From positions 145,848-209,847 of the IMG/VR virus record IMGVR_UViG_3300034073_003542: a DNA stretch of 64,000 nucleotides. One strand, 5' to 3'. The notes beneath the pieces were generated by a model. That model was not told the origin of the DNA, made no database searches, and saw nothing but the letters and a program-made list of their open reading frames with translations. Both the position numbers and the translations under genes were made by a program. Source of the stretch: a virus. Below are positions 31,456-63,647 of the stretch, piece after piece. Within the stretch, counting starts at the first letter, position 1; each line of letters begins with the position of its first letter.

Positions 31456-31461
31456 CAATAT

Positions 31462-32890: not shown

Positions 32891-32918
32891 ATTATAGCAT
32901 ACTGATGGAGTCTGTCAA
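32891..32918 (-). promoter_or_regulatory. Sigma-70-type promoter
   Basis: TTGACA, 16 bp, TATAAT with TGC before the -10. Confidence 0.8.
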
Positions 32919-33386: not shown

Positions 33387-33391
33387 ATTAT

Positions 33392-33469
33392 TTATAGATA
33401 AATTCCTATCATATATCCAACTATATAAGCAAAAAAAGCTATCATAGCCAGTGTCATGAATTCTTTCAT
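33392..33469 (-). CDS. Membrane micro-protein, 25 aa
   Basis: MKEFMTLAMIAFFAYIVG then YMIGIYL. Start overlaps the upstream stop (ATGA). Single helix. Confidence 0.5.
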   Translation of the reverse strand: MKEFMTLAMIAFFAYIVGYMIGIYL

Positions 33470-33684
33470 CTCATTATATTCCTAACAAACATCCCAAACC
33501 CAATTAAAACGTGTAGCACGAATACATACCATAAAACAGGAAATAAAAACGCTCCACAAAATAATCCGGCAAAAAGTACCTGAAATGTTAGATTAAAAAA
33601 ACTGGCTGTTTTATCTGTAATTTTCATTATAGATAGAAACGGATTAAAATATATCATTAATAGAGTTGAGATTAACGATATCAT
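33466..33684 (-). CDS. Two-helix membrane protein, 72 aa
   Basis: Hydrophobic throughout with two predicted helices; begins one base inside the upstream stop (TAATG). Confidence 0.6.
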   Translation of the reverse strand: MISLISTLLMIYFNPFLSIMKITDKTASFFNLTFQVLFAGLFCGAFLFPVLWYVFVLHVLIGFGMFVRNIMR

Positions 33685-33842
33685 TATTTTGGCTCAAATT
33701 TAAGAGATAAAATTAGTAATGTTGGAACCCATATACCAATAAAAATTCCTGTTTCATGATTAATAGAGTACCATGCAGATATACTTGTAGCTATACTAAC
33801 AAGTCCACACACAAAACATATATCGCTAAGAAGTTTATTCAT
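33684..33842 (-). CDS. Two-helix membrane protein, 52 aa
   Basis: ATG at 33842; two membrane segments around a short NHETG loop. Part of the membrane mini-cluster. Confidence 0.55.
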   Translation of the reverse strand: MNKLLSDICFVCGLVSIATSISAWYSINHETGIFIGIWVPTLLILSLKFEPK

Positions 33843-33844
33843 TA

Positions 33845-34696
33845 TTATATTGTAACCTTTTGTTTAGATGAAATAGTGTAACTTTTAATAATATCTTGAA
33901 ATCGCCAAAAATCTTTAAAACAGCACAAAAATCCAGACGCATGAGTAAAATGAGAGTAAGGATTTGGTTGAATCTTGATGTTGTCAGTATTGATTGAGAT
34001 TAAACGATATCCTGAATCTTCTCTACTATCTTGAGTTAAAATTAAAGAAATGTCAAGTTTCTTCATTTTACAGAAATATTGCGTAGGTAGCTTATCAAAA
34101 TCGTTACGGTTAACACCAACGCATCCTGTTACATCTAATATATTGTGTCCGCTAACTTCACCAAGAACATAGCCGTCCTCGATTATATCAATTAGATTTT
34201 TCTGTTCTTCTATTGTACGACAGATATTTTCTCCGATCTTAGCCATCAAAATTAAGATTGGGCCATTAACTCTACAATCTTGAAATTCGCTGAATATTTC
34301 AAGTACACCCTCAACAATGGGTGATCTTGTCATCTTAACAGACTCAATATCAGTTTTGATTAACTTAGCTGCGGCAGTAGGACCGAATGAATCACAAACT
34401 TCAATAAATCTTAGCTCTGGCATGAAATCTCTAAATTCAATATCTCCATAAAAATATTCCAGAATTTGTGTAAAAGAACAAATTTCTTGCTTGAATTGGT
34501 GATGGTCAAAATTCTTTAAGTTAGGATTAAACTGTAGACCTTGATCTATTACCCAAATATTAGGATCGCCCAAATCTTCTTGGGTGAAATCACGCCGATA
34601 GATTTCACATTGAGGTAATTTATAGAGAAGCACACAAGCCGCCAAAAAATCGTCGGAATGAGCCGAATACTTGTGAACTATAACTTTTTCAATCAT
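33845..34696 (-). CDS. DHH/MYG1-like metal-dependent hydrolase
   Basis: 283 residues. HKYSAHSDDFLAACVLL resembles the H-x-x-x-x-D-D/E-x-x-A-x-x-x-L start of MYG1/UPF0160 proteins, VIDQG and NFDHHQF give the DHH-type metal sites. Family members are 3'-5' RNA exonucleases or phosphoesterases. The C-terminal part (GLxHxxGF-like: SHFTHASGFLCC) matches the DHHA1-like closing block. Probably a nucleic-acid or oligonucleotide phosphoesterase. Confidence 0.7.
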   Translation of the reverse strand: MIEKVIVHKYSAHSDDFLAACVLLYKLPQCEIYRRDFTQEDLGDPNIWVIDQGLQFNPNLKNFDHHQFKQEICSFTQILEYFYGDIEFRDFMPELRFIEVCDSFGPTAAAKLIKTDIESVKMTRSPIVEGVLEIFSEFQDCRVNGPILILMAKIGENICRTIEEQKNLIDIIEDGYVLGEVSGHNILDVTGCVGVNRNDFDKLPTQYFCKMKKLDISLILTQDSREDSGYRLISINTDNIKIQPNPYSHFTHASGFLCCFKDFWRFQDIIKSYTISSKQKVTI

Positions 34697-35117
34697 TTGA
34701 TCCCAATAAAACTAATGCCTGCTCAACAAAGTCTTTCGTTTCTTGTTCATGCCACGAGTATTGTAAATCCCAATCCCTGTCTCTGATAAAAGCATGAAGT
34801 TCTTCCTTAGAATCATACCATAATATAGAATTAAAAAGAGATTCTCGTAACTCTTCAATTTCCTTGAATGATTCACACGCTTGTAAAGCATCACAACCCG
34901 AACAACTTCCCCATCCAAAAATCAACATACCATAACGGTTTCCGTCACGCAAAATTAAACGAGAATCACCCTGATAATCACTATCATCAACCTGTAAAAG
35001 TGTTTCAAAACCCATAGAGTTAATTAAAGCCCCATAATCTCCTGGGCCATAAAATCGCCCATATTTCTCTTCATCCTCTGCTAAACAAGGATAAACTTCT
35101 CTAATAGGTTGCATCAT
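34689..35117 (-). CDS. Conserved-type hypothetical, 142 aa
   Basis: The block DYQGDSRLILRDG-x-x-YG-x-L-x-FGWGSCSGCDALQAC is characteristic of a small family seen in phages and actinobacteria. Two close cysteines (CSGCDALQAC) might bind metal. Function unknown. Confidence 0.7.
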   Translation of the reverse strand: MMQPIREVYPCLAEDEEKYGRFYGPGDYGALINSMGFETLLQVDDSDYQGDSRLILRDGNRYGMLIFGWGSCSGCDALQACESFKEIEELRESLFNSILWYDSKEELHAFIRDRDWDLQYSWHEQETKDFVEQALVLLGSND

Positions 35118-54786: not shown

Positions 54787-54849
54787 ATGTCATTTTGGCA
54801 GGGGGTTGCCATTTTGGCAGACGCGGTACAAAAGCTGCCATTTTGGCAT
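54787..54849. repeat. Palindrome locus 1 (CTGCCATTTTGGCAG type, three copies)
   Basis: Copies at 54787-54801 (variant), 54806-54820 and 54835-54849; the last two are 29 bp apart start to start. Located in the 620-base gene-free stretch between 54.5 and 55.1 kb. Confidence 0.75.
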
Positions 54850-54866
54850 ACAGACTCAAATCCTCT

Positions 54867-54925
54867 AAGAGTCTTCAACTGGCTGACTGTGCCATATCTG
54901 CCGAATCTGAAAGATTGGGCTGGAC
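54867..54925 (+). repeat. GGCTGACT...AATCTGAAAGATT element, copy 5
   Basis: The hairpin reads AATCT-GAA-AGATT where others read AATCC-GAA-GGATT: a paired change that keeps base pairing. Flanked by palindrome loci 1 and 2. Confidence 0.6.
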
Positions 54926-54951
54926 AAAACTGTAATGTATGCTATGTGAGA

Positions 54952-54987
54952 CGTTAAGTATGGTTAGTGTCTCATATAGATAACATT
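54952..54987. repeat. Inverted repeat TATGTGAGAC/GTCTCATATA
   Basis: Ten-base arms with one G-T pair, 16-base loop, next to palindrome locus 2. Could be a 3'-end hairpin or protein site. Confidence 0.45.
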
Positions 54988-55054
54988 ATGCCATTTTGGC
55001 AGGAGGCGTCCCCGGCCTGCCATTTTGGCAGTCGCCAAGCTGCCATTTTGGCAC
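54988..55054. repeat. Palindrome locus 2 (three copies)
   Basis: Copies at 54988, 55017 (perfect) and 55040; first pair 29 bp apart. About 70 bases after the stop of the DUF932 gene. Confidence 0.75.
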
Positions 55055-55125
55055 CCAGGAATGAAAAGGGGGCCGCCAGCCTATGCCAGCAGCCCCCAAT
55101 TTAAACCAGGCGATTTTATTCGATC

Positions 55126-56076
55126 CTAGAGAGCGTTCGCAAACTCCAGAGCCGAAGTAAAGGCGTCCGAATTATCGTTCGCACCTTGACCGAACCAGAG
55201 CGAGTCGATCCGGTTGTCGGCGTTGCGACCCTTGGCATAGTTCAGGTATTCATTGACACCATTATATGCCGCCCACCAAGTTCCCTTGACACCGGGGAGC
55301 GACTGACGCGGACCTTCGATCCGGGTCATAATATCAGCGATGATATTCTTGGTACGAGTCGAGATGTCCTCGATAGGAGTTTTCTCAACACCCAAAACCA
55401 CCTTGACATAAGCATCGATGTCTCTTGCACTGAAATTCTTGGACGCAAGAAAGCGATACTGTTCAGCGGTCGCTTCAAACTGGACATTGATATTATCCAT
55501 AATGTCACGTACCTTTTCCAGATTGACTTTCTGCGAACGAGTATGTCGGATGCGAATAAGCTGAGAGCCAGAATCCTTGCTATGAGCCATAGCCATAGTG
55601 TTCGCACACACAACTCGGATGGGAGTATATCCCACGCGAATAGCGGTCGTACCATTGTGACTATTGGAAAGCAGGATGAACTTGCAGACAGTATCATCGC
55701 CAACAATTTCGGAGCAATCGCGGTTCAGTTGGGCAAGAACCCAAACCTTTTCGCCGTTATGGAGCGATCCGGCGGTATGCAGATTGCACTCGCCAGCATC
55801 CAGAAACGGCTGGAACCAATCGAAAGCGTCTTTATTCTGAAGTGGCACATAACGTGGGCCGACTACAGAGAAAATACGCCCATCGCTCACGCGATAGGTA
55901 GCCTTTTCCGGCAGAGCTTCGCCGTCAACAGTCTGAATAGCCTTCAGACCAACTTCCCAATTCAATCCCGACGCATCAATAGCGTCAGCAATAGTAATCT
56001 TGTCATCGACCTTATTGCCAAGACCATGCCAAGGGGTTTCACCAGCGAACATCATCGTTTCAACAGCAGCACTCAT
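55126..56076 (-). CDS. DUF932 / phage-plasmid TIGR03299-like protein
   Basis: 316 residues from the ATG at 56076 (GAGGAAACGAAG before it; the open frame extends to 56115). ETPWHGLGNKV near the start, GRIFSVVGPRYVPLQN, LSNSHNGTTAIRVGYTPIRVVCANT and a LW-F-G-x-G end match DUF932 proteins, common on phages and plasmids and often highly expressed. Function unknown, perhaps DNA-associated. Markedly GC-richer than its neighbours, with different codon choice. Confidence 0.85.
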   Translation of the reverse strand: MSAAVETMMFAGETPWHGLGNKVDDKITIADAIDASGLNWEVGLKAIQTVDGEALPEKATYRVSDGRIFSVVGPRYVPLQNKDAFDWFQPFLDAGECNLHTAGSLHNGEKVWVLAQLNRDCSEIVGDDTVCKFILLSNSHNGTTAIRVGYTPIRVVCANTMAMAHSKDSGSQLIRIRHTRSQKVNLEKVRDIMDNINVQFEATAEQYRFLASKNFSARDIDAYVKVVLGVEKTPIEDISTRTKNIIADIMTRIEGPRQSLPGVKGTWWAAYNGVNEYLNYAKGRNADNRIDSLWFGQGANDNSDAFTSALEFANAL

Positions 56077-56117
56077 CTTCGTTTCCTCTTCTTGTGGGTT
56101 ATCGTTCCGTTTCATGG

Positions 56118-56145
56118 ATTATACCAGAGCATTCGGGGGTGTCAA
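56118..56145 (-). promoter_or_regulatory. Sigma-70-type promoter for DUF932 gene
   Basis: TTGACA, 16 bp, TATAAT with TGG before the -10. Confidence 0.8.
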
Positions 56146-56211
56146 GGGTCTGGTTTGCGGAAAAATAAAGTTTTCGAGTCACTACTTTTGGCATGGGAGT
56201 TGCTGGGGCGT

Positions 56212-56255
56212 CTGCCATTTTGGCAGGCCCGGTAGGTGATCTGCCATTTTGGCAG
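56212..56255. repeat. Palindrome locus 3, tandem pair
   Basis: Two perfect CTGCCATTTTGGCAG copies at 56212 and 56241. They begin one base after the stop of the 56.26 kb gene and lie 67 bases upstream of the next promoter. Confidence 0.8.
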
Positions 56256-56615
56256 TCACGCAACGGCTTCTTTTTCCAGTTCCTTAGAAAGCCTCTGAGG
56301 TTTATTCATCCAAGGTTGTGGAGCGATATTTATAAACCAATCTTGGATAGATGGAATAAATCCACAATCTTCTTGAACGTGCTGTTCTCCCACCCATCGA
56401 GTTGGGATTACCTTACCAGTAGAAAGAGTAATGGTATTACCAAATACTCTGGCACATTCATAGATACCCTGAGAATGATGTCGCAAAGCACGATGGCGAA
56501 AGTCACCAAACATTTCTTTAGAGGCATCAAACCATTCATGAATATCCATATAGTCAGCAACTTCTCCACCCCACTTCTTTACGGATGAAAGAGAATGATG
56601 ATAAGGATTAGACAT
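56256..56615 (-). CDS. Conserved-type phage/plasmid hypothetical, 119 aa
   Basis: HHSQGIYECARVFGNTITLS then IPTRWVGEQHVQEDCGFIPS is the recognisable core of a small family (DUF6915-like) near DUF932 genes on phages and plasmids. Overlaps the upstream gene by one base. Confidence 0.65.
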   Translation of the reverse strand: MSNPYHHSLSSVKKWGGEVADYMDIHEWFDASKEMFGDFRHRALRHHSQGIYECARVFGNTITLSTGKVIPTRWVGEQHVQEDCGFIPSIQDWFINIAPQPWMNKPQRLSKELEKEAVA

Positions 56616-56950
56616 TAGAGAATCTCCTCAAAATCGTTCCAAACTTCTTCACTTTCTTGACCAGACATAACCGCTGTCTCTTTTTCTACATCATACTCAA
56701 CAGTTCCATTTACATAAAACTCACCAGCAAAAGAGTAATATCTGTCATAAACAGGTTTAGAAAGTTGATCTGCAAGTTCTCCGTCGATACCTTCTCCGCC
56801 CCAAGCTGGCAACGTTCCAATAGGAAAACCCGTCTCTGATAGGAGTTGAATATTTTCAACACCACCTTCGTCTCCACCACCACTAAACTGAACTACTACC
56901 TTAGCAGCACCACGCTTACGAAGTTCTGCGAATATCTCTTTGCGATCCAT
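56615..56950 (-). CDS. Conserved-type hypothetical (DUF6878-like), 111 aa
   Basis: Start at 56950 after GGAGAAAAGA. MDRKEIFAELRKRGAAKVVV, SGGGDEGGVENI and YDRYYSFAGEFYVNGTVEYD resemble a family seen with DUF932. Acidic; function unknown. The longer frame upstream lies across the promoter. Confidence 0.7.
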   Translation of the reverse strand: MDRKEIFAELRKRGAAKVVVQFSGGGDEGGVENIQLLSETGFPIGTLPAWGGEGIDGELADQLSKPVYDRYYSFAGEFYVNGTVEYDVEKETAVMSGQESEEVWNDFEEIL

Positions 56951-56984
56951 TTCTTTTCTCCGGGTTATCGTTTCCTGTTCACTG

Positions 56985-57012
56985 ATTATAGCATAGGTGC
57001 AGTGGCTGTCAA
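56985..57012 (-). promoter_or_regulatory. Sigma-70-type promoter
   Basis: TTGACA, 16 bp, TATAAT with TGC before the -10. Confidence 0.8.
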
Positions 57013-57033
57013 CAGTTTTTTCGCTGGCTATCG

Positions 57034-57450
57034 TCATAATTTCGAATCTGGTAGATTGAGTGGAACATAATCGTTGGAGATAGAATATTCAAAAGCTTTT
57101 ATCTGATCTAGATTATCAATACTCAGAATAAGCTTTCCAGTTTTTCTAATTTGATTTTCTTGCCACTTTACATTAGCAGTAGCATTCTTGCTCATTCTCC
57201 AACCAGGCCATTGATGATCATTATATCTATTGAGAATAACAATCAGAGAATTTACATCGCCCCTAACATGGGCGTATTGAGCGAATGGAAATCCACCAGT
57301 TTTTTGGAATTTAAAAGTACTAGCTTTTGGTCCCTGAATTGTATTGATATTGATTTTTAATCTAGCGTCATTAATATGAACACTAGAAGCAATACATATA
57401 GACGAGAAGTGTATCGAGAAGAGAATGAAGAGAGTTAAGATGGGTTTCAT
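57034..57450 (-). CDS. Secreted hypothetical protein, 138 aa
   Basis: Signal peptide MKPILTLFILFSIHFSSICIAS, then a beta-rich domain with aromatic and Arg residues (HQWPGWRMSKN). Probably periplasmic. It is the last element after the tRNA array. Unknown function. Confidence 0.65.
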   Translation of the reverse strand: MKPILTLFILFSIHFSSICIASSVHINDARLKININTIQGPKASTFKFQKTGGFPFAQYAHVRGDVNSLIVILNRYNDHQWPGWRMSKNATANVKWQENQIRKTGKLILSIDNLDQIKAFEYSISNDYVPLNLPDSKL

Positions 57451-57453
57451 AAG

Positions 57454-57527
57454 TAGCTGCGGTGAGGGTCGAACTCACACTGTTCGGATTTTAAGTCCGA
57501 TTTCTCTGCCTGTTGGAATACGCAGCC
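57454..57527 (-). tRNA. tRNA-Leu (TAA), short variable region
   Basis: Acceptor GGCTGCG/CGCAGCT, anticodon arm TCGGA-CTTAAAA-TCCGA, T arm GTGAG-TTCGACC-CTCAC, discriminator A. The variable region is only ACAGT, not the long arm normal for bacterial leucine tRNAs. Confidence 0.85.
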
Positions 57528-57531
57528 ATAA

Positions 57532-57606
57532 TACCGGGAACTGGATTTGAACCAGCACTGTTATGCTTCTAAGGCATATGTCTCCTGCCAATTGGACTAC
57601 CCCGGC
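57532..57606 (-). tRNA. tRNA-Leu (TAG), short variable region
   Basis: Acceptor GCCGGGG/TCCCGGT with two G-T pairs, anticodon arm TATGC-CTTAGAA-GCATA, D arm GTCCAATTGGCAGGAGAC. Class I body again, discriminator A. Confidence 0.85.
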
Positions 57607-57614
57607 GTGTCAAG

Positions 57615-57688
57615 TAGGAAGTATTGGAGTCGAACCAATCTTTTGAGTACCTTATAAGAGTACGTGCCACTACCGGCGGCAACTTCCC
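57615..57688 (-). tRNA. tRNA-Ile (TAT)
   Basis: Anticodon arm GTACT-CTTATAA-GGTAC; acceptor GGGAAGT/ACTTCCT; reads AUA, a codon common in AT-rich phage genes and poorly served by many hosts. Confidence 0.85.
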
Positions 57689-57697
57689 ATGTTTTTT

Positions 57698-57726
57698 ATT
57701 ATACACCGACGCTGGAGAAAAGTCAA
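57698..57726 (-). promoter_or_regulatory. Promoter within tRNA array
   Basis: TTGACT, 17 bp, TATAAT on the reverse strand; faces tRNA-Ile, Leu, Leu. Confidence 0.65.
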
Positions 57727-57727
57727 G

Positions 57728-57800
57728 TAGACCGGGTGAGAGTCGAACTCACGATAGGCGGATTAAAAGTCCGCTACTTTAGCCGCTAAGTTACCGATCC
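57728..57800 (-). tRNA. tRNA-Lys (TTT)
   Basis: Anticodon arm GCGGA-CTTTTAA-TCCGC, T arm GTGAG-TTCGACT-CTCAC. Confidence 0.9.
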
Positions 57801-57811
57801 ATGTTCAGTCA

Positions 57812-57839
57812 AGTATACCATACCCTTCTCTGTTGTCAA
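57812..57839 (-). promoter_or_regulatory. Promoter within tRNA array
   Basis: TTGACA, 16 bp, TATACT with TGG before the -10; faces tRNA-Lys(TTT). Confidence 0.75.
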
Positions 57840-57855
57840 CCCCTCAATTTTGTGT

Positions 57856-57899
57856 CTGCCATTTTGGCAGCCTCGCTACTCCGCCTGTCAAATTGGCAG
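57856..57899. repeat. Palindrome locus 4, tandem pair
   Basis: CTGCCATTTTGGCAG at 57856 and CTGTCAAATTGGCAG at 57885, spacing 29. Between two tRNA-Lys genes and upstream of a promoter. Confidence 0.75.
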
Positions 57900-57908
57900 T
57901 GTCTGAAG

Positions 57909-57979
57909 TGAGTGATGAAAGAATCGAACTTTCGTCGAGATGTTAAGAGCATCCTATAATACCATTATACTAATCACCC
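57909..57979 (-). tRNA. tRNA-Lys (CTT)
   Basis: Anticodon arm GGATG-CTCTTAA-CATCT, acceptor GGGTGAT/ATCACTC. Confidence 0.85.
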
Positions 57980-57983
57980 GAAA

Positions 57984-58068
57984 TGCAGAGTTGGGGAGTC
58001 GAACCCTATCCTTCCGTCCAGTTCATTAAGGAACGAGCTTAGAACGCACGTACTGGCTGCAACCCTGC
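57984..58068 (-). tRNA. tRNA-like, anticodon uncertain (perhaps Arg TCT)
   Basis: 85 bases with a good acceptor (GCAGGGT/ACTCTGC) and a T loop TTCGACT. The middle does not fold cleanly: GTTCTAA in a mismatched stem would give TCT (Arg), while a CTTAATG loop would give TAA. The length suggests a class II body or a decaying gene. Confidence 0.5.
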
Positions 58069-58078
58069 GTGTCGATAC

Positions 58079-58106
58079 ATTATACATTACCGAATCGAAC
58101 TGTCAA
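58079..58106 (-). promoter_or_regulatory. Promoter within tRNA array
   Basis: TTGACA, 16 bp, TATAAT just upstream of the tRNA-like gene and just after tRNA-Ser(GGA). Confidence 0.75.
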
Positions 58107-58107
58107 G

Positions 58108-58197
58108 CGAAGGACAAGAGGATTGAACTCTCACCGGGTTTTTAATCCGGCCTACTTTTCCAAAGTAGTGCAGCAAACCAATATCTGCCTATCCTTC
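58108..58197 (-). tRNA. tRNA-Ser (GGA), class II
   Basis: Anticodon arm CTACT-TTGGAAA-AGTAG, long variable arm GCCGG..CCGGT, discriminator G. Confidence 0.88.
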
Positions 58198-58212
58198 ATA
58201 GAACCAAACAAG

Positions 58213-58298
58213 CGGAGGCGAAAGGAATCGAACCTTCGAGGGTTTTTTAGGCCCCAGCTATTTTCAAGATAGTGTCCTCGACCTACCGGACCACCTCC
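58213..58298 (-). tRNA. tRNA-Ser (TGA), class II
   Basis: Anticodon loop CTTGAAA, acceptor GGAGGTG/CGCCTCC, long variable arm, discriminator G. Confidence 0.88.
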
Positions 58299-58311
58299 AT
58301 ATATTATCAAG

Positions 58312-58396
58312 CGGAAGTAGCAGGGTTCGAACCTGCAAGCCTTTTTAGGGGCCAACTCTTTAGCAAAGAGCTTCCTCACCAACTCGGATTACTTCC
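58312..58396 (-). tRNA. tRNA-Ser (GCT), class II
   Basis: Anticodon loop TTGCTAA, acceptor GGAAGTA/TACTTCC, long variable arm, discriminator G. Third serine tRNA in a row, probably by duplication. Confidence 0.88.
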
Positions 58397-58401
58397 ATTA
58401 G

Positions 58402-58483
58402 CACTAGAAGTAGGACTCGAACCTACAGTGTCTTTCGACGGGAGATTAACAGTCTCCTGCGTTTACCATTCCGCCACTCTAGT
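58402..58483 (-). tRNA. tRNA with Asn anticodon (GTT) on class II body
   Basis: Anticodon arm GGAGA-CTGTTAA-TCTCC reads AAC/AAU. The body is class II: D arm GCGGAATGGTAAACGC and a 14-base variable region folding as GTC-GAAA-GAC, with discriminator G. It follows three serine tRNAs and probably derives from one, so charging with Ser is as likely as with Asn. Confidence 0.75.
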
Positions 58484-58497
58484 ATGATTATCGTCAG

Positions 58498-58570
58498 GGT
58501 GGCTAATGGGAGTCGAACCCATATCACTTGATTCACAGTCAAGCCGCTTCACCAGTTAGCGTATAACCAC
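58498..58570 (-). tRNA. tRNA-His (GTG)
   Basis: Anticodon arm CTTGA-CTGTGAA-TCAAG, acceptor GTGGTTA/TAGCCAC, discriminator C. The base before position 1 is T, so the extra G-1 of bacterial tRNA-His is not encoded. Confidence 0.88.
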
Positions 58571-58572
58571 AG

Positions 58573-58643
58573 TTCCGGGGCTACGATTCGAACGTAGAAT
58601 AAATGGTCCAAAGCCATTTGTGATACCATTTCACTACCCCGGA
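58573..58643 (-). tRNA. tRNA-Gln (TTG)
   Basis: Anticodon arm AATGG-CTTTGGA-CCATT, acceptor TCCGGGG/CCCCGGA. Confidence 0.88.
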
Positions 58644-58646
58644 ATG

Positions 58647-58862
58647 TTAAGCGTCTCTATGCGATCCGCTTAGTTTTTTACTTTCTCTCAAATACTCAGC
58701 AATCTCTATGAGCTTCTTTCCAAGTTCTTCAATGTTGTCTGCTTCTTTTTTAGTAAGCCACGAAGCAACGTGCATGAAAAGATAATTCTCTTTACCTTTG
58801 GTTCTCACTCCAGCAACCCCGACAGACGGGTTATTAAACTCTTGTGGAAAGTTTCTCATCAT
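58647..58862 (-). CDS. Hypothetical protein inside tRNA array, 71 aa
   Basis: Small soluble protein beginning with tandem ATGs; SVGVAGVRTKGKENYLFMHV then a charged helix. Own promoter seven bases upstream, so transcribed with the tRNAs that follow. Unknown role. Confidence 0.6.
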   Translation of the reverse strand: MMRNFPQEFNNPSVGVAGVRTKGKENYLFMHVASWLTKKEADNIEELGKKLIEIAEYLRESKKLSGSHRDA

Positions 58863-58868
58863 GCACCT

Positions 58869-58897
58869 AGTTTAGCATAACTTCAAGAAGTTGTCAA
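58869..58897 (-). promoter_or_regulatory. Promoter within tRNA array
   Basis: TTGACA, 17 bp, TAAACT; faces the 71-aa gene. Confidence 0.55.
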
Positions 58898-58898
58898 G

Positions 58899-58971
58899 TG
58901 GAGCAAGTCAGAGTCGAACTGACATGGCGAGATTTTCAGTCTCGTGCCGTGACCGCGTAGGCTATTGCTCC
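58899..58971 (-). tRNA. tRNA-Phe (GAA)
   Basis: Anticodon arm CGAGA-CTGAAAA-TCTCG, acceptor GGAGCAA/TTGCTCC. Confidence 0.9.
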
Positions 58972-58982
58972 ATAATTATCAG

Positions 58983-59056
58983 TCCTCAATGTAGGCATCG
59001 AACCCACTACCTTCTCGGTGTAAACGAGACGCTCTAGCCGAATGAGCTAATTGAGG
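58983..59056 (-). tRNA. tRNA-Val (TAC)
   Basis: Anticodon arm TCTCG-TTTACAC-CGAGA, acceptor CCTCAAT/ATTGAGG. Confidence 0.88.
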
Positions 59057-59061
59057 ATATA

Positions 59062-59133
59062 TCTAGAATGTCGAAATCGAATCGCTCTTGCTTGCCCCAA
59101 ACAAGCCGTGCAAACCATTACACTTCATTCTAG
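59062..59133 (-). tRNA. tRNA-Pro (TGG)
   Basis: Anticodon arm GCTTG-TTTGGGG-CAAGC, acceptor CTAGAAT/ATTCTAG. The T stem is weak (about three good pairs). Confidence 0.8.
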
Positions 59134-59153
59134 TTATTTAACAGTCTTGAACA

Positions 59154-59225
59154 AGTTGATGATAGGAGTTGAACCTACAACTAACTTCATACCAAGAAGC
59201 TACTCTACCATTGAGTTACATCAAC
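59154..59225 (-). tRNA. tRNA-Thr (GGT)
   Basis: Anticodon arm GCTTC-TTGGTAT-GAAGT, acceptor GTTGATG/CATCAAC. Confidence 0.88.
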
Positions 59226-59228
59226 ATA

Positions 59229-59299
59229 AGCCAATACGAGGAATCGAACCCCGGTGTTCTCATTACAAGTGAGACGTAATTCCACTATACGATACTGGC
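59229..59299 (-). tRNA. tRNA-Thr (TGT)
   Basis: Anticodon arm TCTCA-CTTGTAA-TGAGA, acceptor GCCAGTA/TATTGGC. Confidence 0.88.
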
Positions 59300-59305
59300 A
59301 AATTA

Positions 59306-59379
59306 TGCGTCTATCCAGATTCGAACTGGAACATTCAGTTTGGAAGACTGACAGGCTAGCCGTTGAACCTCATAGACGC
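59306..59379 (-). tRNA. tRNA-Gly (TCC)
   Basis: Anticodon arm TCAGT-CTTCCAA-ACTGA, acceptor GCGTCTA/TAGACGC. Confidence 0.9.
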
Positions 59380-59385
59380 GTTTAG

Positions 59386-59457
59386 TGACCCTACTGAGAA
59401 TCGAACTCAGATTGCTAGATTGAAAGTCTAGATTCCTAACCATTAGAAGATAGGGCC
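59386..59457 (-). tRNA. tRNA-Glu (TTC)
   Basis: Anticodon arm CTAGA-CTTTCAA-TCTAG, acceptor GGCCCTA/TAGGGTC. Confidence 0.9.
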
Positions 59458-59467
59458 ATATCATTTC

Positions 59468-59495
59468 ATTATACCAACTCTTTTCATTCTGTCAA
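59468..59495 (-). promoter_or_regulatory. Promoter within tRNA array
   Basis: TTGACA, 16 bp, TATAAT; lies between tRNA-Ala and tRNA-Glu. Confidence 0.75.
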
Positions 59496-59496
59496 G

Positions 59497-59567
59497 TGGA
59501 CCGTAAGAGAATCGAACTCTTATTTGAAGCTTGCAAAGCTACCGTTCTCCCGTTGAACTAACAGCCC
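59497..59567 (-). tRNA. tRNA-Ala (TGC)
   Basis: Anticodon loop TTTGCAA with one mismatch in the stem; acceptor GGGCTGT/ACGGTCC. It lacks the G3-U70 pair in the usual position: position 3 is G opposite T, which does give the G-U identity pair. Confidence 0.82.
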
Positions 59568-59574
59568 ATATCTA

Positions 59575-59648
59575 TCCGCTAGGAAAGAGTCGAACTTTCG
59601 TCTCGAACTTATCAGGTTCGCATTCTAAAACCGTTGAAATACTAGCGG
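59575..59648 (-). tRNA. tRNA-Ile (GAT)
   Basis: Anticodon arm CGAAC-CTGATAA-GTTCG, acceptor CCGCTAG/CTAGCGG. Confidence 0.88.
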
Positions 59649-59654
59649 TCAAAA

Positions 59655-59742
59655 GTCCCCCGTAGAAGAATTGAACTACCCGGCAGCCACCTATTAATTT
59701 AATGCCCCGTGTTTTACAGACACAGAATAGGAGTACGAGGGA
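59655..59742 (-). tRNA. tRNA-Tyr (GTA), class II
   Basis: Anticodon loop CTGTAAA, acceptor TCCCTCG/CGGGGGA, long variable region as usual for bacterial tRNA-Tyr. The T stem is imperfect. Confidence 0.75.
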
Positions 59743-59763
59743 AATTATCATCATACATATCAG

Positions 59764-59836
59764 CGATTCTACCGGGAATCGAACCCGGATTTCCAGATGG
59801 ACAGTCTAGCGTCGTGAACCGTTGGACCATAGAACC
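59764..59836 (-). tRNA. tRNA-Asp (GTC)
   Basis: Anticodon arm CTAGA-CTGTCCA-TCTGG, T arm CCGGG-TTCGATT-CCCGG, acceptor GGTTCTA/TAGAATC. Confidence 0.88.
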
Positions 59837-59842
59837 GTTAAG

Positions 59843-59914
59843 TGGGTCGTGAATGATTTGCACATTCGTCTCTGGTTTCGTAGACCAGTATACTATCTAC
59901 TATACTAACAACCC
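59843..59914 (-). tRNA. tRNA-Arg (ACG)
   Basis: Anticodon arm CTGGT-CTACGAA-ACCAG, acceptor GGGTTGT/ACGACCC. Confidence 0.88.
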
Positions 59915-59920
59915 ATATTA

Positions 59921-60003
59921 TGTCGGCGGCGGGATTTGAACCACTTTAATGCGATTTCAAGTTTATGAGACTTGCGAGGACGACCAGACTCCTCTACGCC
60001 GAA
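59921..60003 (-). tRNA. Atypical tRNA-Met-like (CAT)
   Basis: Anticodon arm CAAGT-CTCATAA-ACTTG and D stem GAGG/CCTC are clear. Acceptor TTCGGCG/CGCCGAC has an unpaired first position, as in initiator tRNAs, with discriminator A. The T stem has only about two pairs and the variable region is long. Either a diverged initiator or a decaying gene. Confidence 0.55.
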
Positions 60004-60004
60004 A

Positions 60005-60075
60005 TGCCTCTTGCTTGAATTGAACAAGCGTCAACTTCGTATGAAAAAGTTAGATTACCACTATCCTAAAGAGGC
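60005..60075 (-). tRNA. tRNA-Met (CAT)
   Basis: Anticodon loop TTCATAC in stem ACTTT/GAAGT, acceptor GCCTCTT/AAGAGGC, T arm GCTTG-TTCAATT-CAAGC. Elongator type; an Ile-reading modified C34 cannot be excluded. Confidence 0.82.
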
Positions 60076-60080
60076 GAAAG

Positions 60081-60151
60081 CATACTCACAAGGATTCGAG
60101 CCTTGACCAACTGTTTTGGAGACAGTGATGCTACCGTTACACCATGAGTAT
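60081..60151 (-). tRNA. tRNA-Trp (CCA)
   Basis: Anticodon arm ACTGT-CTCCAAA-ACAGT, acceptor ATACTCA/TGAGTAT, T arm CAAGG-CTCGAAT-CCTTG. First tRNA of the array. Confidence 0.88.
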
Positions 60152-60164
60152 GTGTTTTTTATGA

Positions 60165-60260
60165 AACCCGAATTGTCAAAGAGCGAAACTATTTGTACTC
60201 TCTGATATTCCCCAAGAGAAGGCTCAAGGGGTTCTCACCCCGAGCACAAAGGGGCAAGAA
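60165..60260 (-). other. Array leader with four alternating C4/G4 blocks
   Basis: Reading leftward: CCCC (60251-60254), GGGG (60238-60241), CCCC (60228-60231), GGGG (60210-60213). Any neighbouring pair can form a hairpin, and the outer pairing excludes the inner, as in attenuators. Lies between a short peptide gene and the first tRNA. Confidence 0.45.
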
Positions 60261-60365
60261 TTAGCCTTCGCAGGCTGGATTTTGGCGATATCCAAAGCCT
60301 GAATGACTACGGACGTTCCACGATGTTTTCGTGGTATCAATCGTGTTGTAGTTAATTCTGGACAT
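60261..60365 (-). CDS. Short peptide gene before tRNA array, 34 aa
   Basis: MSRINYNTIDTTKTSWNVR, continuing SHSGFGYRQNPACEG. Start at 60365 has AAGGG about 13 bases before it. The open frame extends upstream, but the promoter lies inside it, so only the later ATGs can be used. May act as a leader peptide for the C4/G4 attenuator-like region. Confidence 0.45.
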   Translation of the reverse strand: MSRINYNTIDTTKTSWNVRSHSGFGYRQNPACEG

Positions 60366-60408
60366 TTGAAATTCGTTACCCTTAATGTTGTTTTTCCTGA
60401 CCTCTACC

Positions 60409-60437
60409 ATTATAGCCGACCCGACACCCGTTGTCAA
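60409..60437 (-). promoter_or_regulatory. Sigma-70-type promoter, likely start of tRNA-array transcript
   Basis: TTGACA, 17 bp, TATAAT with GC before the -10. Confidence 0.75.
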
Positions 60438-60487
60438 GTGGTCCGTTTCTTTCCTTACACCATTATTATAAAAGTCGTCTAATATTT

Positions 60488-60531
60488 CTGCCATTATGGC
60501 AGTCTCGCTACCCGCCCTGCCATTTTGGCAG
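60488..60531. repeat. Palindrome locus 5, tandem pair
   Basis: CTGCCATTATGGCAG at 60488 and CTGCCATTTTGGCAG at 60517, spacing 29. Between a terminator (60.55 kb) and the promoter for the tRNA array. Confidence 0.8.
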
Positions 60532-60547
60532 TTTAGAAAAGTCTACG

Positions 60548-60578
60548 AAAAAACCCGCAGGATTCAAAGTCCCACGGG
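60548..60578 (-). terminator. Intrinsic terminator
   Basis: Stem CCCGTGGGA / TCCTGCGGG (nine pairs with G-T), 7-base loop, six U. Ends the transcript coming from 60.6-61.1 kb. Confidence 0.8.
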
Positions 60579-60589
60579 CTTCTCGCCTC

Positions 60590-60634
60590 AATAGCGGTAA
60601 TGAGTCTCTATTTTATACTAAGCTAACCGCTATT
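60590..60634 (-). promoter_or_regulatory. Inverted repeat AATAGCGGT/ACCGCTATT around a TATAAA box
   Basis: Perfect nine-base arms at 60590-60598 and 60626-60634 with TATAAAAT between them. Possible operator over a promoter for a short RNA ending at the terminator, or a stem in the upstream gene's 3' region. Confidence 0.4.
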
Positions 60635-60782
60635 CCGCAGTCGGTCAAGACGTAAGATTGTTGACTAGACTAGCTTAGGCAAAGTTGCGCATCCTTTGCA
60701 TTTTCTACGCAAGACGGAATGGATACCGTCCTGCCGCTTTGGGCCTAAAGTCTGTTTATTCTCGCCCAAACGAGCCGCTGAT

Positions 60783-61073
60783 TCACTCAGCCGCAGCTTC
60801 CGCAGGAGCTTCAAGGTTCGGAGCCTTGACCTTCTTCGGATTGGCCGAATCGCCAGCCTGCTCCGCAGTCTCACCCGTCACACGAGCACGCCACACCTTG
60901 TAGCCCTGCTCCGTAAACGTCTTGACTGCACCAGCCTTGACGCCAATGTTCTCAACCGAATCACCAAACCGCTCGTCCAGAAAATCCGCAATCGCCTGAG
61001 CAACCGCTTCACGATCAACGCTACCAGCGGCAGCAACCAGACTCACATCAAACGCACACTTTTCACGCACCAT
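60783..61073 (-). CDS. GC-rich small protein, 96 aa
   Basis: DREAVAQAIADFLDERFGD, then VWRARVTGETAEQAG and an Ala/Pro-rich tail. Distinctly GC-richer than neighbours, with Ala and GCC/GAC-type codons. Soluble, probably an abundant small alpha/beta protein. Function unknown. Confidence 0.7.
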   Translation of the reverse strand: MVREKCAFDVSLVAAAGSVDREAVAQAIADFLDERFGDSVENIGVKAGAVKTFTEQGYKVWRARVTGETAEQAGDSANPKKVKAPNLEAPAEAAAE

Positions 61074-61123
61074 TGCTATTTACTCCAAAAGACTATCGTT
61101 TCCAATCACTCACTACTACAACC

Positions 61124-61151
61124 ATTATAGCAGCGTTTTACCACTTGTCAA
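61124..61151 (-). promoter_or_regulatory. Sigma-70-type promoter
   Basis: TTGACA, 16 bp, TATAAT with TGC before the -10; drives the GC-rich gene. Confidence 0.8.
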
Positions 61152-61211
61152 GTCACATGAGCGAGTTTTGTTATTTGTGCTCTCGTCAGCGTCTTGTCTT
61201 GTGATACATGG

Positions 61212-61239
61212 ATTATACCATACACTTCGTGTTAGTCAA
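61212..61239 (-). promoter_or_regulatory. Upstream tandem promoter
   Basis: TTGACT, 16 bp, TATAAT with TGG before the -10, about 90 bases upstream of the first. Confidence 0.65.
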
Positions 61240-61262
61240 GAGGGTAGGTCAAAAATCTTTTG

Positions 61263-61281
61263 TCTCAAACGGCGACGGCCT
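61263..61281 (+). repeat. Copy of TCTCAAACGGCGACGGCCT repeat
   Basis: Identical to the copy at 40144-40162; followed by TTTTTGGCA and a palindrome locus. Confidence 0.6.
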
Positions 61282-61313
61282 TTTTGGCACAGCGTTTGCT
61301 GTCGCGGTGTATG

Positions 61314-61357
61314 CTGCCATTTTGGCAGGCCTGGTAGCGAAGCTGCCATTTTGGCAG
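61314..61357. repeat. Palindrome locus 6, tandem pair
   Basis: Two perfect copies at 61314 and 61343. Ends two bases before the stop of the 61.36 kb gene. Confidence 0.8.
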
Positions 61358-61358
61358 C

Positions 61359-61571
61359 CTAGTAATCTATTGATTCTGGATCAAAGTTTTCAATAATACT
61401 AGCTATATTATTTAGTGTCTCTGTTGCGTTTTCGCCACAAAAAGATTCGTCACCACATCGATCCCAGGTACGTTCTACTTCTGTATTGCGAATCATGTCA
61501 GCTAATACAGCACGGTCTTCCACAGCTATCTTACTGAGTACTTCTTCTTGTTCTATTGTTAATCTTATCAT
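61359..61571 (-). CDS. Acidic hypothetical protein, 70 aa
   Basis: Helical, RLTIEQEEVLSKIAVEDRA and GDESFCGENATETLNNIAS; no known domain. Confidence 0.65.
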   Translation of the reverse strand: MIRLTIEQEEVLSKIAVEDRAVLADMIRNTEVERTWDRCGDESFCGENATETLNNIASIIENFDPESIDY

Positions 61572-61575
61572 GATA

Positions 61576-61749
61576 TTATACCGAGAAATTCATCTCCACA
61601 CACATATCAATAATCTCTTGAGCAGTAATATTGTGCTCTTTGATTGTGTTAGCAATTTCTTCTTGAGTTTTTTGGCTCATAAGAGCCATTCTGTTCCTAA
61701 TCGAAATAATTACTTTGAGAATTGCTTTGTTGCGTTCGCTACACATCAT
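61576..61749 (-). CDS. Hypothetical protein, 57 aa
   Basis: ATG at 61749 overlaps the upstream stop (ATGA). Helical, EEIANTIKEHNITAQEIID; looks like two short helices, perhaps DNA or protein binding. Not recognised. Confidence 0.6.
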   Translation of the reverse strand: MMCSERNKAILKVIISIRNRMALMSQKTQEEIANTIKEHNITAQEIIDMCVEMNFSV

Positions 61750-61973
61750 TTATTTCCGTATACGTATTTGTGGATTCGTTTTGATGCCTGCATATCTCGC
61801 CTTTTGAGTTCACCGTGGCAATACAGGATTTCGTCCGTGTAATAACCCACGTTCTCGCCATCAGGCATTGCAGCAATAACCTCGCGGCAATCTTGGATAG
61901 TGTATTCCAGTTCACTTTCCGACATCTTCTTTACTTTCCGCATATAAGCGGCGTGATCCATAATCTTTTTCAT
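61746..61973 (-). CDS. Conserved-type small protein, 75 aa
   Basis: Start at 61973. MSESELEYTIQDCREVIAAM then ENVGYYTDEILYCHGELKRR match a common phage/plasmid mini-protein pattern (YTI-x-D-C-x-E-A/V-I-x-A-x-P-x-x-x-x-x-G-Y-Y-x-D-E). Helical hairpin; unknown role. Confidence 0.7.
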   Translation of the reverse strand: MKKIMDHAAYMRKVKKMSESELEYTIQDCREVIAAMPDGENVGYYTDEILYCHGELKRRDMQASKRIHKYVYGNK

Positions 61974-61980
61974 ATTGGTA

Positions 61981-62008
61981 TTATACCACAAGGAAATCGT
62001 TTGTCAAG
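61981..62008 (-). promoter_or_regulatory. Sigma-70-type promoter
   Basis: TTGACA, 16 bp, TATAAT with TGG before the -10; eight bases before the ATG at 61973, so again a very short leader. Confidence 0.75.
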
Positions 62009-62075
62009 TGCTCCTTATTTTGGCTGACTACGACCACTAAAACCGAATCCGAAGGATTGGCCGAGACAAGGGGAA
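62009..62075 (+). repeat. GGCTGACTAC...AATCCGAAGGATT element, copy 6
   Basis: TTGGCTGACTACGACC, AATCC-GAA-GGATT, GGCCGAGAC. Next to the -35 of a minus-strand promoter; no plus-strand gene follows. Confidence 0.55.
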
Positions 62076-62171
62076 GCCATAGCCCTTCATCAAAAGATTT
62101 GGAGTCTTTCGAAGGTTGCAATAAGGGCGGGTTTTCTGATTCCCTGTTCTCGACCAAATATTACCTATTCG

Positions 62172-62231
62172 TTATCGACAACACCCACATAGACCGCAAA
62201 CTACGCATAGAGTGAAAATACAATATACCAT
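62172..62231 (-). CDS. Cys-rich hydrophobic micro-protein, 19 aa
   Basis: MVYCIFTLCVVCGLCGCCR after AGGAGAAAAGT, close relative of the 53.53 kb peptide; both start codons lie within a promoter spacer. Confidence 0.45.
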   Translation of the reverse strand: MVYCIFTLCVVCGLCGCCR

Positions 62232-62250
62232 ACTTTTCTCCTAGTGTCAA
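62222..62250 (-). promoter_or_regulatory. Sigma-70-type promoter overlapping micro-ORF
   Basis: TTGACA, 17 bp, TATATT with TGG before the -10. Confidence 0.6.
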
Positions 62251-62265
62251 GTGGCCCAAAACCAC

Positions 62266-62293
62266 ATTATACCAGAAGGGCGGTTGTCCACAA
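62266..62293 (-). promoter_or_regulatory. Weaker upstream promoter
   Basis: TTGTGG, 16 bp, TATAAT with TGG before the -10; could transcribe the 19-aa frame. Confidence 0.45.
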
Positions 62294-62323
62294 GTGTTTG
62301 AGATATCTAGGGTTACGTTGGGT

Positions 62324-62367
62324 CTGCCTTTTTGGCAGCGAGGGCAGAGTGTCTGCCATTTTGGCAG
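62324..62367. repeat. Palindrome locus 7, tandem pair
   Basis: CTGCCTTTTTGGCAG at 62324 and CTGCCATTTTGGCAG at 62353; the second ends one base before the stop codon of the next gene. Confidence 0.8.
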
Positions 62368-62550
62368 TTACACAATTACTTCTACTTTAGATAGAATGTC
62401 TGAGGAAATTTCACTATAACATTCCCTAATAGTTTTACATTCCCCAATTATACTATGATCCCTATCATTCCACCATTGGTAAATCCGCCCAACTTTCTCA
62501 ACGTGGTAGCCGTACTGTTCGGCAAAAATCTGTAGTTTTCGTAATTGCAT
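62368..62550 (-). CDS. Hypothetical protein, 60 aa
   Basis: Start at 62550. LRKLQIFAEQYGYHVEKVG then YQWWNDRDHSIIGECKTIRE: small alpha/beta protein similar in outline to the 5.7 kb gene. Unknown. Confidence 0.6.
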   Translation of the reverse strand: MQLRKLQIFAEQYGYHVEKVGRIYQWWNDRDHSIIGECKTIRECYSEISSDILSKVEVIV

Positions 62551-62551
62551 C

Positions 62552-62719
62552 TTATTGTCCGTGGAAAAGATATAAGCCAAATGAAAAAATCATCACAGAC
62601 ATTATCATATCAAGTGCCGGATATTTAGCCTCTTTAGGACTGATAGTAAATATCAGTAGTTGCCCAACAATCCACCCGATATTCATAGCGACAAGCGAGC
62701 TAATGCTAAATGTAATCAT
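62552..62719 (-). CDS. Two-helix membrane protein, 55 aa
   Basis: ATG at 62719 overlaps the upstream stop (ATGA). Two hydrophobic segments around SPKEAKYPA. Confidence 0.6.
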   Translation of the reverse strand: MITFSISSLVAMNIGWIVGQLLIFTISPKEAKYPALDMIMSVMIFSFGLYLFHGQ

Positions 62720-62880
62720 TTTTCATTCCAGTCGTTGAAACACACAGTACAAATTAAGCAATTCATTCCACAAATCATCGTATTACCAATCAAATATTGA
62801 TAACTAGGACTATTCATAGAAAAAATAGCAATGAGAGAAGTGACAACGAAACACACATATCGAAGCATTTTTGTATTCAT
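62716..62880 (-). CDS. Cys-rich membrane protein, 54 aa
   Basis: ATG at 62880. One membrane helix then MICGMNCLICTVCF near the end, four cysteines in a hydrophobic stretch, reminiscent of the MVY micro-proteins. Confidence 0.55.
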   Translation of the reverse strand: MNTKMLRYVCFVVTSLIAIFSMNSPSYQYLIGNTMICGMNCLICTVCFNDWNEK

Positions 62881-62889
62881 ATTTGTCCT

Positions 62890-63027
62890 TTATACCAATA
62901 GTTTATTGACTAGGCAATTCGCCCCAAACTTCTTTATTGCGTCAGTTTCGGCAGCTTGTTGACAAAACGCCAAAACATAACCGACAAAACGACCTTCCTG
63001 CACAACTCTGTAAGTGATTTCTAGCAT
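62890..63027 (-). CDS. Small protein, 45 aa, likely leaderless
   Basis: ATG at 63027, six bases after the -10, no ribosome site. MLEITYRVVQEGRFVGYVL, then AFCQQAAETDAIKKFG. Unknown. Confidence 0.55.
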   Translation of the reverse strand: MLEITYRVVQEGRFVGYVLAFCQQAAETDAIKKFGANCLVNKLLV

Positions 63028-63033
63028 AATAGG

Positions 63034-63061
63034 ATTATATCATAATGGTTGGAGTTGTCAA
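63034..63061 (-). promoter_or_regulatory. Sigma-70-type promoter, leaderless geometry
   Basis: TTGACA, 16 bp, TATAAT, six bases, ATG. Confidence 0.8.
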
Positions 63062-63066
63062 TAGGC

Positions 63067-63213
63067 TTATTCATCCATTATCCATTTTCCAAGTTTTTGT
63101 GTTTTTCTGCCAAGTCCCTTGCCAAGTCTGTAGCTCGTAGATTGCTGATCTGCTGGCTTAAAGATAATATACCAAATAAAGCCAAACACCAAAATCGCAC
63201 CTAATACTTCCAT
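63067..63213 (-). CDS. Single-pass membrane protein, 48 aa
   Basis: ATG at 63213. N-terminal helix ILVFGFIWYIIF then a basic tail (GKGLGRKTQKLGKW). Overlooked by size but in operon position. Confidence 0.55.
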   Translation of the reverse strand: MEVLGAILVFGFIWYIIFKPADQQSTSYRLGKGLGRKTQKLGKWIMDE

Positions 63214-63259
63214 TATACTAAATCGCCTTTCTTTTTTTTATTTATTATTTATATGTATT

Positions 63260-63538
63260 CTACTCAGAAACGTCACCAAATAACTCATCCCAATCAGACA
63301 CAGAAAATCCTGTTAGTAGTAGCTCTCGTTCGTCTGCTGTTAAATATGGAAAACAGTGCTGTATAGCCTTTTCTCCATTACAAAAATCTACAAAATCTTC
63401 CTTATTGACTACCATAGTGAACGGCACGCCATCCCGACTACTGCCCATGAATGTAACATCCCCAGAATTATCACATTCGTACACATGCACATATTCACTT
63501 AGACCATAGCACTTACGTTTGCAATTAGTGACAAGCAT
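63260..63538 (-). CDS. Conserved-type phage hypothetical, 92 aa
   Basis: CFPYLTADERELLLTGFSVSD and a C-terminal W-D-E-L-F-G are the recognisable end of a small protein family common in phages and plasmids. Beta-rich first half. Function unknown. Confidence 0.7.
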   Translation of the reverse strand: MLVTNCKRKCYGLSEYVHVYECDNSGDVTFMGSSRDGVPFTMVVNKEDFVDFCNGEKAIQHCFPYLTADERELLLTGFSVSDWDELFGDVSE

Positions 63539-63570
63539 CGTAGCACCTCATGTTGTTTAGCAGTAACGGA

Positions 63571-63598
63571 ATTATACCATATGGATACACCATGTCAA
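63571..63598 (-). promoter_or_regulatory. Sigma-70-type promoter
   Basis: TTGACA, 16 bp, TATAAT with TGG before the -10. Confidence 0.8.
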
Positions 63599-63603
63599 GC
63601 TCT

Positions 63604-63647
63604 ATGCCATTTTGGCAGTGCCTCGACCGAAACTGCCAGATTGGCAG
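63604..63647. repeat. Palindrome locus 8, tandem pair
   Basis: ATGCCATTTTGGCAG at 63604 and CTGCCAGATTGGCAG at 63633, spacing 29, between the end of the right-edge gene and the next promoter. Confidence 0.75.

Follow-up and report, generated by a model that had tools for sequence, protein, structure and literature searches.

Paired 15-bp palindromes at a fixed 29-bp phase between early units of uncultured large phages: a candidate DNA boundary array

Stoperators occur in the Cluster A mycobacteriophages (L5, Bxb1) at up to approximately 30 sites per genome, mostly in one orientation relative to transcription and with a phage-specific motif, and the repressor bound to them blocks elongation (PMC6550527). 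The T4-like phages have promoter early stem-loop cassettes (PeSLs), comprising a unit end, a stem-loop and an early promoter, which are dense in regions of gene shuffling (PMC4503421). Here we describe a 44-bp element, made up of two copies of a 15-bp palindrome around a 14-bp spacer, which occurs eight times in a 64,000-nucleotide stretch (the window) at the right end of the 209,847-bp virus record IMGVR_UViG_3300034073_003542 (positions 145,848 to 209,847).

The stoperators are the closest described system in function and the PeSL cassettes the closest in layout. As with the stoperators, the pairs are numerous (24-32 per contig in near-identical contigs and the closest relatives), lie near genes, are mostly of one orientation when their loops are read in the promoter sense (AAA in 173 and TTT in nine of 257 distinct pairs; mixed in part of the related contig G001) and have a core that varies from phage to phage, with closer resemblance inside a single phage. 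Stoperators, however, are single, short, asymmetric sites of 13 bp for one monomeric repressor, distributed genome-wide in temperate phages that encode this cognate repressor, whereas the present element is a symmetric pair of 15-bp palindromes, found in one early cluster and nearly always near a promoter, with no cognate repressor gene among the Pfam families listed for 177 open reading frames (ORFs) of the record, which is incomplete. A stem-loop followed by a strong sigma-70 promoter between units is shared with the PeSLs. The fixed palindrome occurring twice at a 29-bp phase, the G/C core centred on a pyrimidine-purine (YR) step, the lack of a U-run in the window and substitutions that do not preserve sense-strand pairing distinguish the element from them. 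As it lacks the asymmetric single site of the stoperators and fails the pairing-conservation test of an RNA hairpin, it is filed as neither.

Tandem U-less ("U-shaped") predicted terminators consist of two hairpins, separated by a short gap, behind genes; we know of no fixed sequence or spacing in this class. The element shares the two tandem hairpins behind genes, but its sequence and spacing are fixed. It differs from intrinsic (L-shaped) terminators in that a U-run directly behind the stem is absent at the window pairs, bar a weak one at 54836-54848, an A/T-rich tail being present in some relatives only. While the arms around a phage-variable core recall lox- or attC-type sites, each arm is here itself palindromic and the core orientation is stable at corresponding loci. 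The repetitive extragenic palindrome (REP) super-families carry a GTAG or CGTC tag at one palindrome end (PMC3733652). The element resembles REPs and bacterial interspersed mosaic elements (BIMEs) in its paired intergenic palindromes and differs in being shorter, fixed in phase, without a GTAG/CGTC tag and found in the phage early region only.

Palindrome pairs in the window and in related phages

At up to three mismatches, 31 matches to the palindrome CTGCCATTTTGGCAG occur in the window, compared with 1.07 (standard deviation 1.10) in shuffled sequence. At all eight loci two copies start exactly 29 bp apart. Since the genes, tRNA genes and strong promoters of the stretch lie on the minus strand, the gene-sense copy reads CTGCCAAAATGGCAG. 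The pairs are as follows:

54806-54849, minus strand: pair 1, copies 54806-54820 and 54835-54849; a third copy (54787-54801) lies 19 bp before it, in another phase
54988-55031, minus strand: pair 2, copies 54988-55002 and 55017-55031; a third copy (55040-55054) lies 23 bp after it, in another phase
56212-56255, minus strand: pair 3, copies starting at 56212 and 56241; abuts (0 bp) the stop codon of ORF 56256-56615
57856-57899, minus strand: pair 4, copies starting at 57856 and 57885; 8 bp past the tRNA-Lys(CTT) gene 57908-57979
60488-60531, minus strand: pair 5, copies starting at 60488 and 60517; preceded by a non-coding stretch with a terminator-like hairpin (60543-60580)
61314-61357, minus strand: pair 6, copies starting at 61314 and 61343; 1 bp from the stop codon of ORF 61359-61571
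62324-62367, minus strand: pair 7, copies starting at 62324 and 62353; abuts (0 bp) the stop codon of ORF 62368-62580
63604-63647, minus strand: pair 8, copies starting at 63604 and 63633; its end lies 5 bp ahead of the following promoter's -35

The approximately 138 bp between pairs 1 and 2 (54850-54987) contain no clear gene or promoter and possibly represent a small RNA or a decayed unit.

An earlier note on this DNA had described eight intergenic pairs in exact 29-bp phase, often close to stop codons, with none to the left of 54.7 kb. All eight were located, and the closeness to stop codons was likewise found (0 bp at 56255/56256 and 62367/62368, 1 bp at 61357/61359). The whole record holds exactly eight pairs at up to three mismatches, all inside the window, and no exact-motif tandem elsewhere over its 209,847 bp. 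To the left of 54.7 kb, a copy with three mismatches at 45463 is the sole match. A chance origin of the pairs is ruled out by the counts against shuffles, as is their derivation from recent copies of a longer duplicated segment, the repeat families stopping at an element of 44-62 bp with differing flanks.

A strong excess over shuffled sequence is also evident in the relatives. Contigs of related phages from IMG/VR, 309 kb in total, contain 434 copies, compared with approximately seven in Markov shuffles, and 391 of these (90%) belong to exact 29-bp pairs. A spacing of 29 bp was seen 196 times in these contigs against at most five for any other within 15-130 bp, so that the phase described for the window holds, and is not variable, across the family. 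When spacings of 19-49 bp were allowed in a scan of IMG/VR, 29 bp accounted for 291 cases (next commonest, 23), while the scan with exact 29-bp spacing returned 85 stretches. The near-identical contigs and closest relatives carry approximately one pair per kb. Among them, the 34-kb contig G001, which shares 99.98% identity with the window in their overlap, extends the array to 32 pairs at intervals of approximately 0.2-2.6 kb. In the phages seen, the pairs are restricted to one part of the genome, of approximately 9-30 kb. The early proteins common to these phages share approximately 40-78% identity, indicating that the 29-bp phase has survived strong divergence. Two early proteins of G001 (14994-15269 and 19601-19891) have a common C-terminal segment, GDxANPKxVKAPNLE, which suggests duplicated units.

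BLAST of two 44-bp examples against the GenBank phages gave no full-length match and only marginal partial ones, and megablast of the region revealed no relatives there. No exact 29-bp pair was listed for 85k prokaryote genomes, an exact scan giving zero hits; the matches listed in a relaxed scan of prokaryote genomes were scattered over unrelated phyla, without an excess at 29 bp. Eight structural-region proteins gave no PHROG match. The pair-bearing phages form a family of uncultured large phages. An ORF of 5,102 amino acids, not annotated, lies beside the left-end genes in record G000 (19652-34960, plus strand), and one of 5,391 amino acids occurs in the relative G005. Also observed were two ORFs that divide the DNA polymerase III alpha domains between them, and an intein-like LAGLIDADG/homing endonuclease insert in a RecA gene (G000, L176 1197-5592 and 11712-13757, minus strand).

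Unit junctions, promoters and the spacer core

The sigma-70 promoters and small ORFs of the stretch suggest that it comprises early genes. Its strong promoters are of the form TTGACA-16/17-TATAAT on the minus strand, and the following features accompany the pairs:

56118-56145, minus strand: sigma-70 promoter, TTGACA-16-TATAAT (12/12), downstream of pair 3
57812-57839, minus strand: sigma-70 promoter (11/12), downstream of pair 4
60409-60437, minus strand: sigma-70 promoter (12/12), downstream of pair 5
61212-61239, minus strand: sigma-70 promoter (11/12), downstream of pair 6
62222-62250, minus strand: sigma-70 promoter (11/12), downstream of pair 7
63571-63598, minus strand: sigma-70 promoter (12/12), downstream of pair 8
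55068-55097, minus strand: intrinsic terminator of the DUF932 unit (13-bp stem, TTTT), just before pair 2

The 32 pairs of G001 lie at junctions and alternate with promoters, nearly all on one strand; the first promoter of this array has no pair upstream, which indicates that the pairs mark junctions. In a wider set of 102 pairs, a sense sigma-70-like promoter follows 93 of them at no more than 160 bp downstream. The upstream neighbour is usually a stop codon, which 27 of 239 pairs abut exactly and another 27 follow with an end 12-13 bp upstream, although exact abutment is in part a forced outcome, there being no stop codon in CTGCCAAAA. Translation is not needed, as one pair follows a tRNA gene. 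Intrinsic terminators are few in the array; the clearest is that of the DUF932 gene, which coexists with a pair, an arrangement that this gene also shows in G006, G012 and G005b. In many relatives a T-rich and also UP-element-like A/T-rich tract of approximately 24 bp lies between the pair and the -35.

Several other features of these units were observed. The cluster of 24 tRNA genes (57453-60151, minus strand) has promoters within it and encloses one pair. A Pistol self-cleaving ribozyme (60703-60775, minus strand; Rfam RF02679, 60.6 bits against a cut-off of 34.5) is located within an early unit, 7 bp past the stop of ORF 60783-61073. The early promoters of relatives such as G006 and G005 frequently carry TTGACA-agccgata-N7-TAGAAT, in which the spacer text is conserved and may represent a promoter feature specific to these phages. 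Hairpins of the form CCCC-loop-GGGG without U-runs, another hairpin type at unit ends, lie upstream of the array's first pair in G018, G006 and G012.

The distances between pair and -35 cluster near 3, 14, 24, 35, 44 and 53 bp, and a period test on all distances gave p values from <0.0005 to 0.007, depending on the redundancy filter. The helical phasing of the pair-to-promoter distances is moderate.

The spacer, which the earlier note had regarded as free, is in fact constrained. In a set of 257 distinct pairs, G/C makes up 90-98% at spacer positions 4-10, and 87% have a YR step at positions 7-8, which form the exact dyad (CG in 197, or 77%, TA in 18, or 7%, CA in six and TG in two), against 0.8% and 3% YR in the two flanking steps. 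The core varies by phage, being GGCCGCGG in many, GGCCGGCC in G008 and GGGTAGCG-like in the window's own group, and cores from one phage resemble each other more closely than cores of different phages do (mean best match of 5.37 and 4.81 of 8 positions, respectively; 4.90 and 3.37 in group A). Cores are found in both orientations, and at corresponding loci of related phages the orientation is kept, giving no sign of frequent inversion. A loop orientation that holds as an absolute rule was ruled out, given that TTT, mixed and AAA loops occur in G001 though its promoters point one way.

An accessory 17-mer, TTTGGCAYRRNATTTGCT, adjoins many pairs in the relatives, often at 4-6 bp. Two copies were located in the window:

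56188-56204, plus strand: TTGGCATGGGAGTTGCT, GG-N10-GC, sigma-54-like; beside pair 3, on the opposite strand
61284-61300, plus strand: TTGGCACAGCGTTTGCT, GG-N10-GC, sigma-54-like; beside pair 6, on the opposite strand

The 17-mer fits TTGGCAC-N5-TTGC, with the GG-N10-GC form of a sigma-54 promoter, and a GG-GC gap of 10 was counted 111 times, against nine for gaps of 8, 9, 11 and 12 together. Its direction is against the genes in 85 of 103 cases, several being face to face. It has TGCCAAA in common with the palindrome and may represent a second type of operator. An inverted double 17-mer was found, as the exact pattern, in two IMG/VR stretches only. A coding repeat (an ATG within the palindrome after a Shine-Dalgarno-like sequence, with in-frame LPKWQ/LPFWQ) was rejected because the accessory motif moves by single bases and because 3-bp indels would be tolerated, yet the spacing remains 29.

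DNA-bound complex, RNA hairpins and other explanations

Judged from the sequence, we propose with moderate confidence that the 44-bp element is a DNA site for a putative protein complex, forming a boundary or operator array that is stoperator-like in function. The earlier note had left the choice between a protein bound as a pair and paired RNA hairpins. A DNA-bound complex is better supported by the fixed spacing, the G/C core with its YR step, the stem changes and the phasing, and the hairpin or terminator explanation is weakened. One-sided stem changes on the sense strand yield A.C in 118 cases and G.U in 35, with six compensatory cells (36 A.C and 9 G.U in a flank-non-redundant set with the outer pair left out). 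This predominance of A.C runs opposite to the expectation for an RNA stem that is maintained on the transcribed strand. G.U pairs on the other strand would agree with it, but no good evidence of an antisense transcript was found.

The DNA-level reading and the helical phasing are nevertheless only partly supported, and several observations weigh against a protein-bound site. No repressor-type family is among the Pfam families listed (25 of 42 in batch 1 and 15 in batch 2) for the 177 ORFs; the only helix-turn-helix in these families is of the sigma-70 region-4/UPF0122 type, and no DNA-binding family was recognised in the conserved early proteins. A spacing of 29 bp corresponds to 2.76 turns at 10.5 bp per turn, which places the palindromes not exactly on one face of relaxed DNA. 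The period test weakens to p values of 0.0015-0.07 without the 20-29 bp cluster and of 0.02-0.09 on unique distances, and residual shared ancestry may lie behind the helical signal. The flank furthermore lengthens the copy-1 stem beyond chance (two of 2000 shuffles reach it), which is not the case for copy 2, and the sense RNA gives a better fold than its shuffled versions (z of -2.7 to -3.7), as one long hairpin. Such folding is expected of RNA hairpins, but also of any palindrome.

The last two observations, together with the stable fold of the 44-nt RNA, would be accommodated if the pair acted as RNA, with two 15-nt hairpins, or one long hairpin between copies 1 and 2, terminating transcription or halting 3' decay at the 3' ends of units. 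The closeness of pairs to stop codons, the scarcity of intrinsic terminators elsewhere in the array and the marking of junctions, with the first G001 promoter lacking an upstream pair, also point in this direction. The earlier observation that no U-run follows the pairs holds for the window but not for many relatives, in which an A/T-rich stretch with T-runs lies behind copy 2 and a few copy-2 hairpins score as terminators. We nonetheless consider this explanation less likely in view of the A.C mismatches and rare compensatory changes in the sense-RNA stem, the missing U-run in the window and the strong intrinsic terminator that the DUF932 unit has besides its pair; a hairpin terminator offers no evident role for the YR-centred G/C core or the exact phase, and the abutment of stop codons is in part forced. 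The pairs may still play a role in transcription termination.

If the pairs served to shuffle small early units, as recombination sites or cassette boundaries of a lox-, attC- or PeSL-like kind, they would likewise present a symmetric 44-bp site with a phage-specific core, between small gene groups that each have their own promoter. As regards breakpoints at the element, a feature of interest in the comparison with PeSLs, where sequence blocks can be aligned between related phages, 18% of the block ends fall no more than 10 bp from a pair, against 6% at random. This excess is modest, could reflect alignments that stop at conserved pairs or recombination at operon boundaries in general, and is accompanied by indels that mostly end away from pairs and by a core orientation kept at corresponding loci, making a recombination function improbable. 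Slightly more improbable still is a host-type enhancer, in which the palindromes would be paired sites of an NtrC-family activator and the 17-mers sigma-54 core promoters. The arrangement CTGCC-AAAAT-GGCAG corresponds in layout to an NtrC-type site, TTTGGCAYRRNATTTGCT agrees with the -24/-12 consensus, and both the prevailing gap of 10 and the frequent position 4-6 bp from a pair are in keeping with such a promoter. However, with most 17-mers opposing the genes, their start site would lie within the pair, and some are face to face; the genes are served by sigma-70 promoters; no sigma-54 or Fis-type helix-turn-helix family was above the cut-off in 16 phage records; and the TGCCAAA held in common with the palindrome would also be explained by a second operator type. 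REP/BIME-like mobile or topological elements at operon ends, such as gyrase sites, would account for paired palindromes between units and behind stop codons and are the least probable of these explanations, as the flanks and spacer ends differ between copies, which are thus not products of recent transposition, and no conserved GTAG/CGTC tag stands beside the copies in the aligned flanks.

A candidate boundary code of the early region

Under the proposed DNA-bound complex, one dimer of a sequence-specific protein would bind each palindrome, and the 29-bp spacing, with a stiff G/C core and flexible centre, would allow two dimers to join into one symmetric complex on bent DNA. Located at almost every early-unit junction, where one unit has ended and the sigma-70 promoter of the next still lies downstream, the complex would most likely block RNA polymerase coming out of the upstream unit, acting as a roadblock or boundary, and would modulate the next promoter from a helically phased position. 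The putative binder may be a phage protein, while a host protein is a reasonable alternative if the early genes are read on entry.

Phage early regions contain numerous small genes whose function is unknown, and in these phages such genes are arranged in units that each have a strong promoter of their own; how dozens of strong promoters in a row escape mutual interference is a question seldom addressed. More tentatively, the pairs may constitute a DNA boundary code that belongs to this phage family, which lacks cultured relatives, in which a 44-bp two-dimer site at approximately 30 junctions is read by a putative protein and insulates and times cassette-like small early units. Because the core is phage-specific, related phages that share a cell would under this code be able to distinguish their own sites. 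The signal between units is explicit, recurs as many as 32 times and is conserved even in diverged members, and is thus directly testable. If a protein does read this signal, a new phage or host regulator would await discovery. The motif also provides a simple metagenome marker for these phages and for the ends of their early units.

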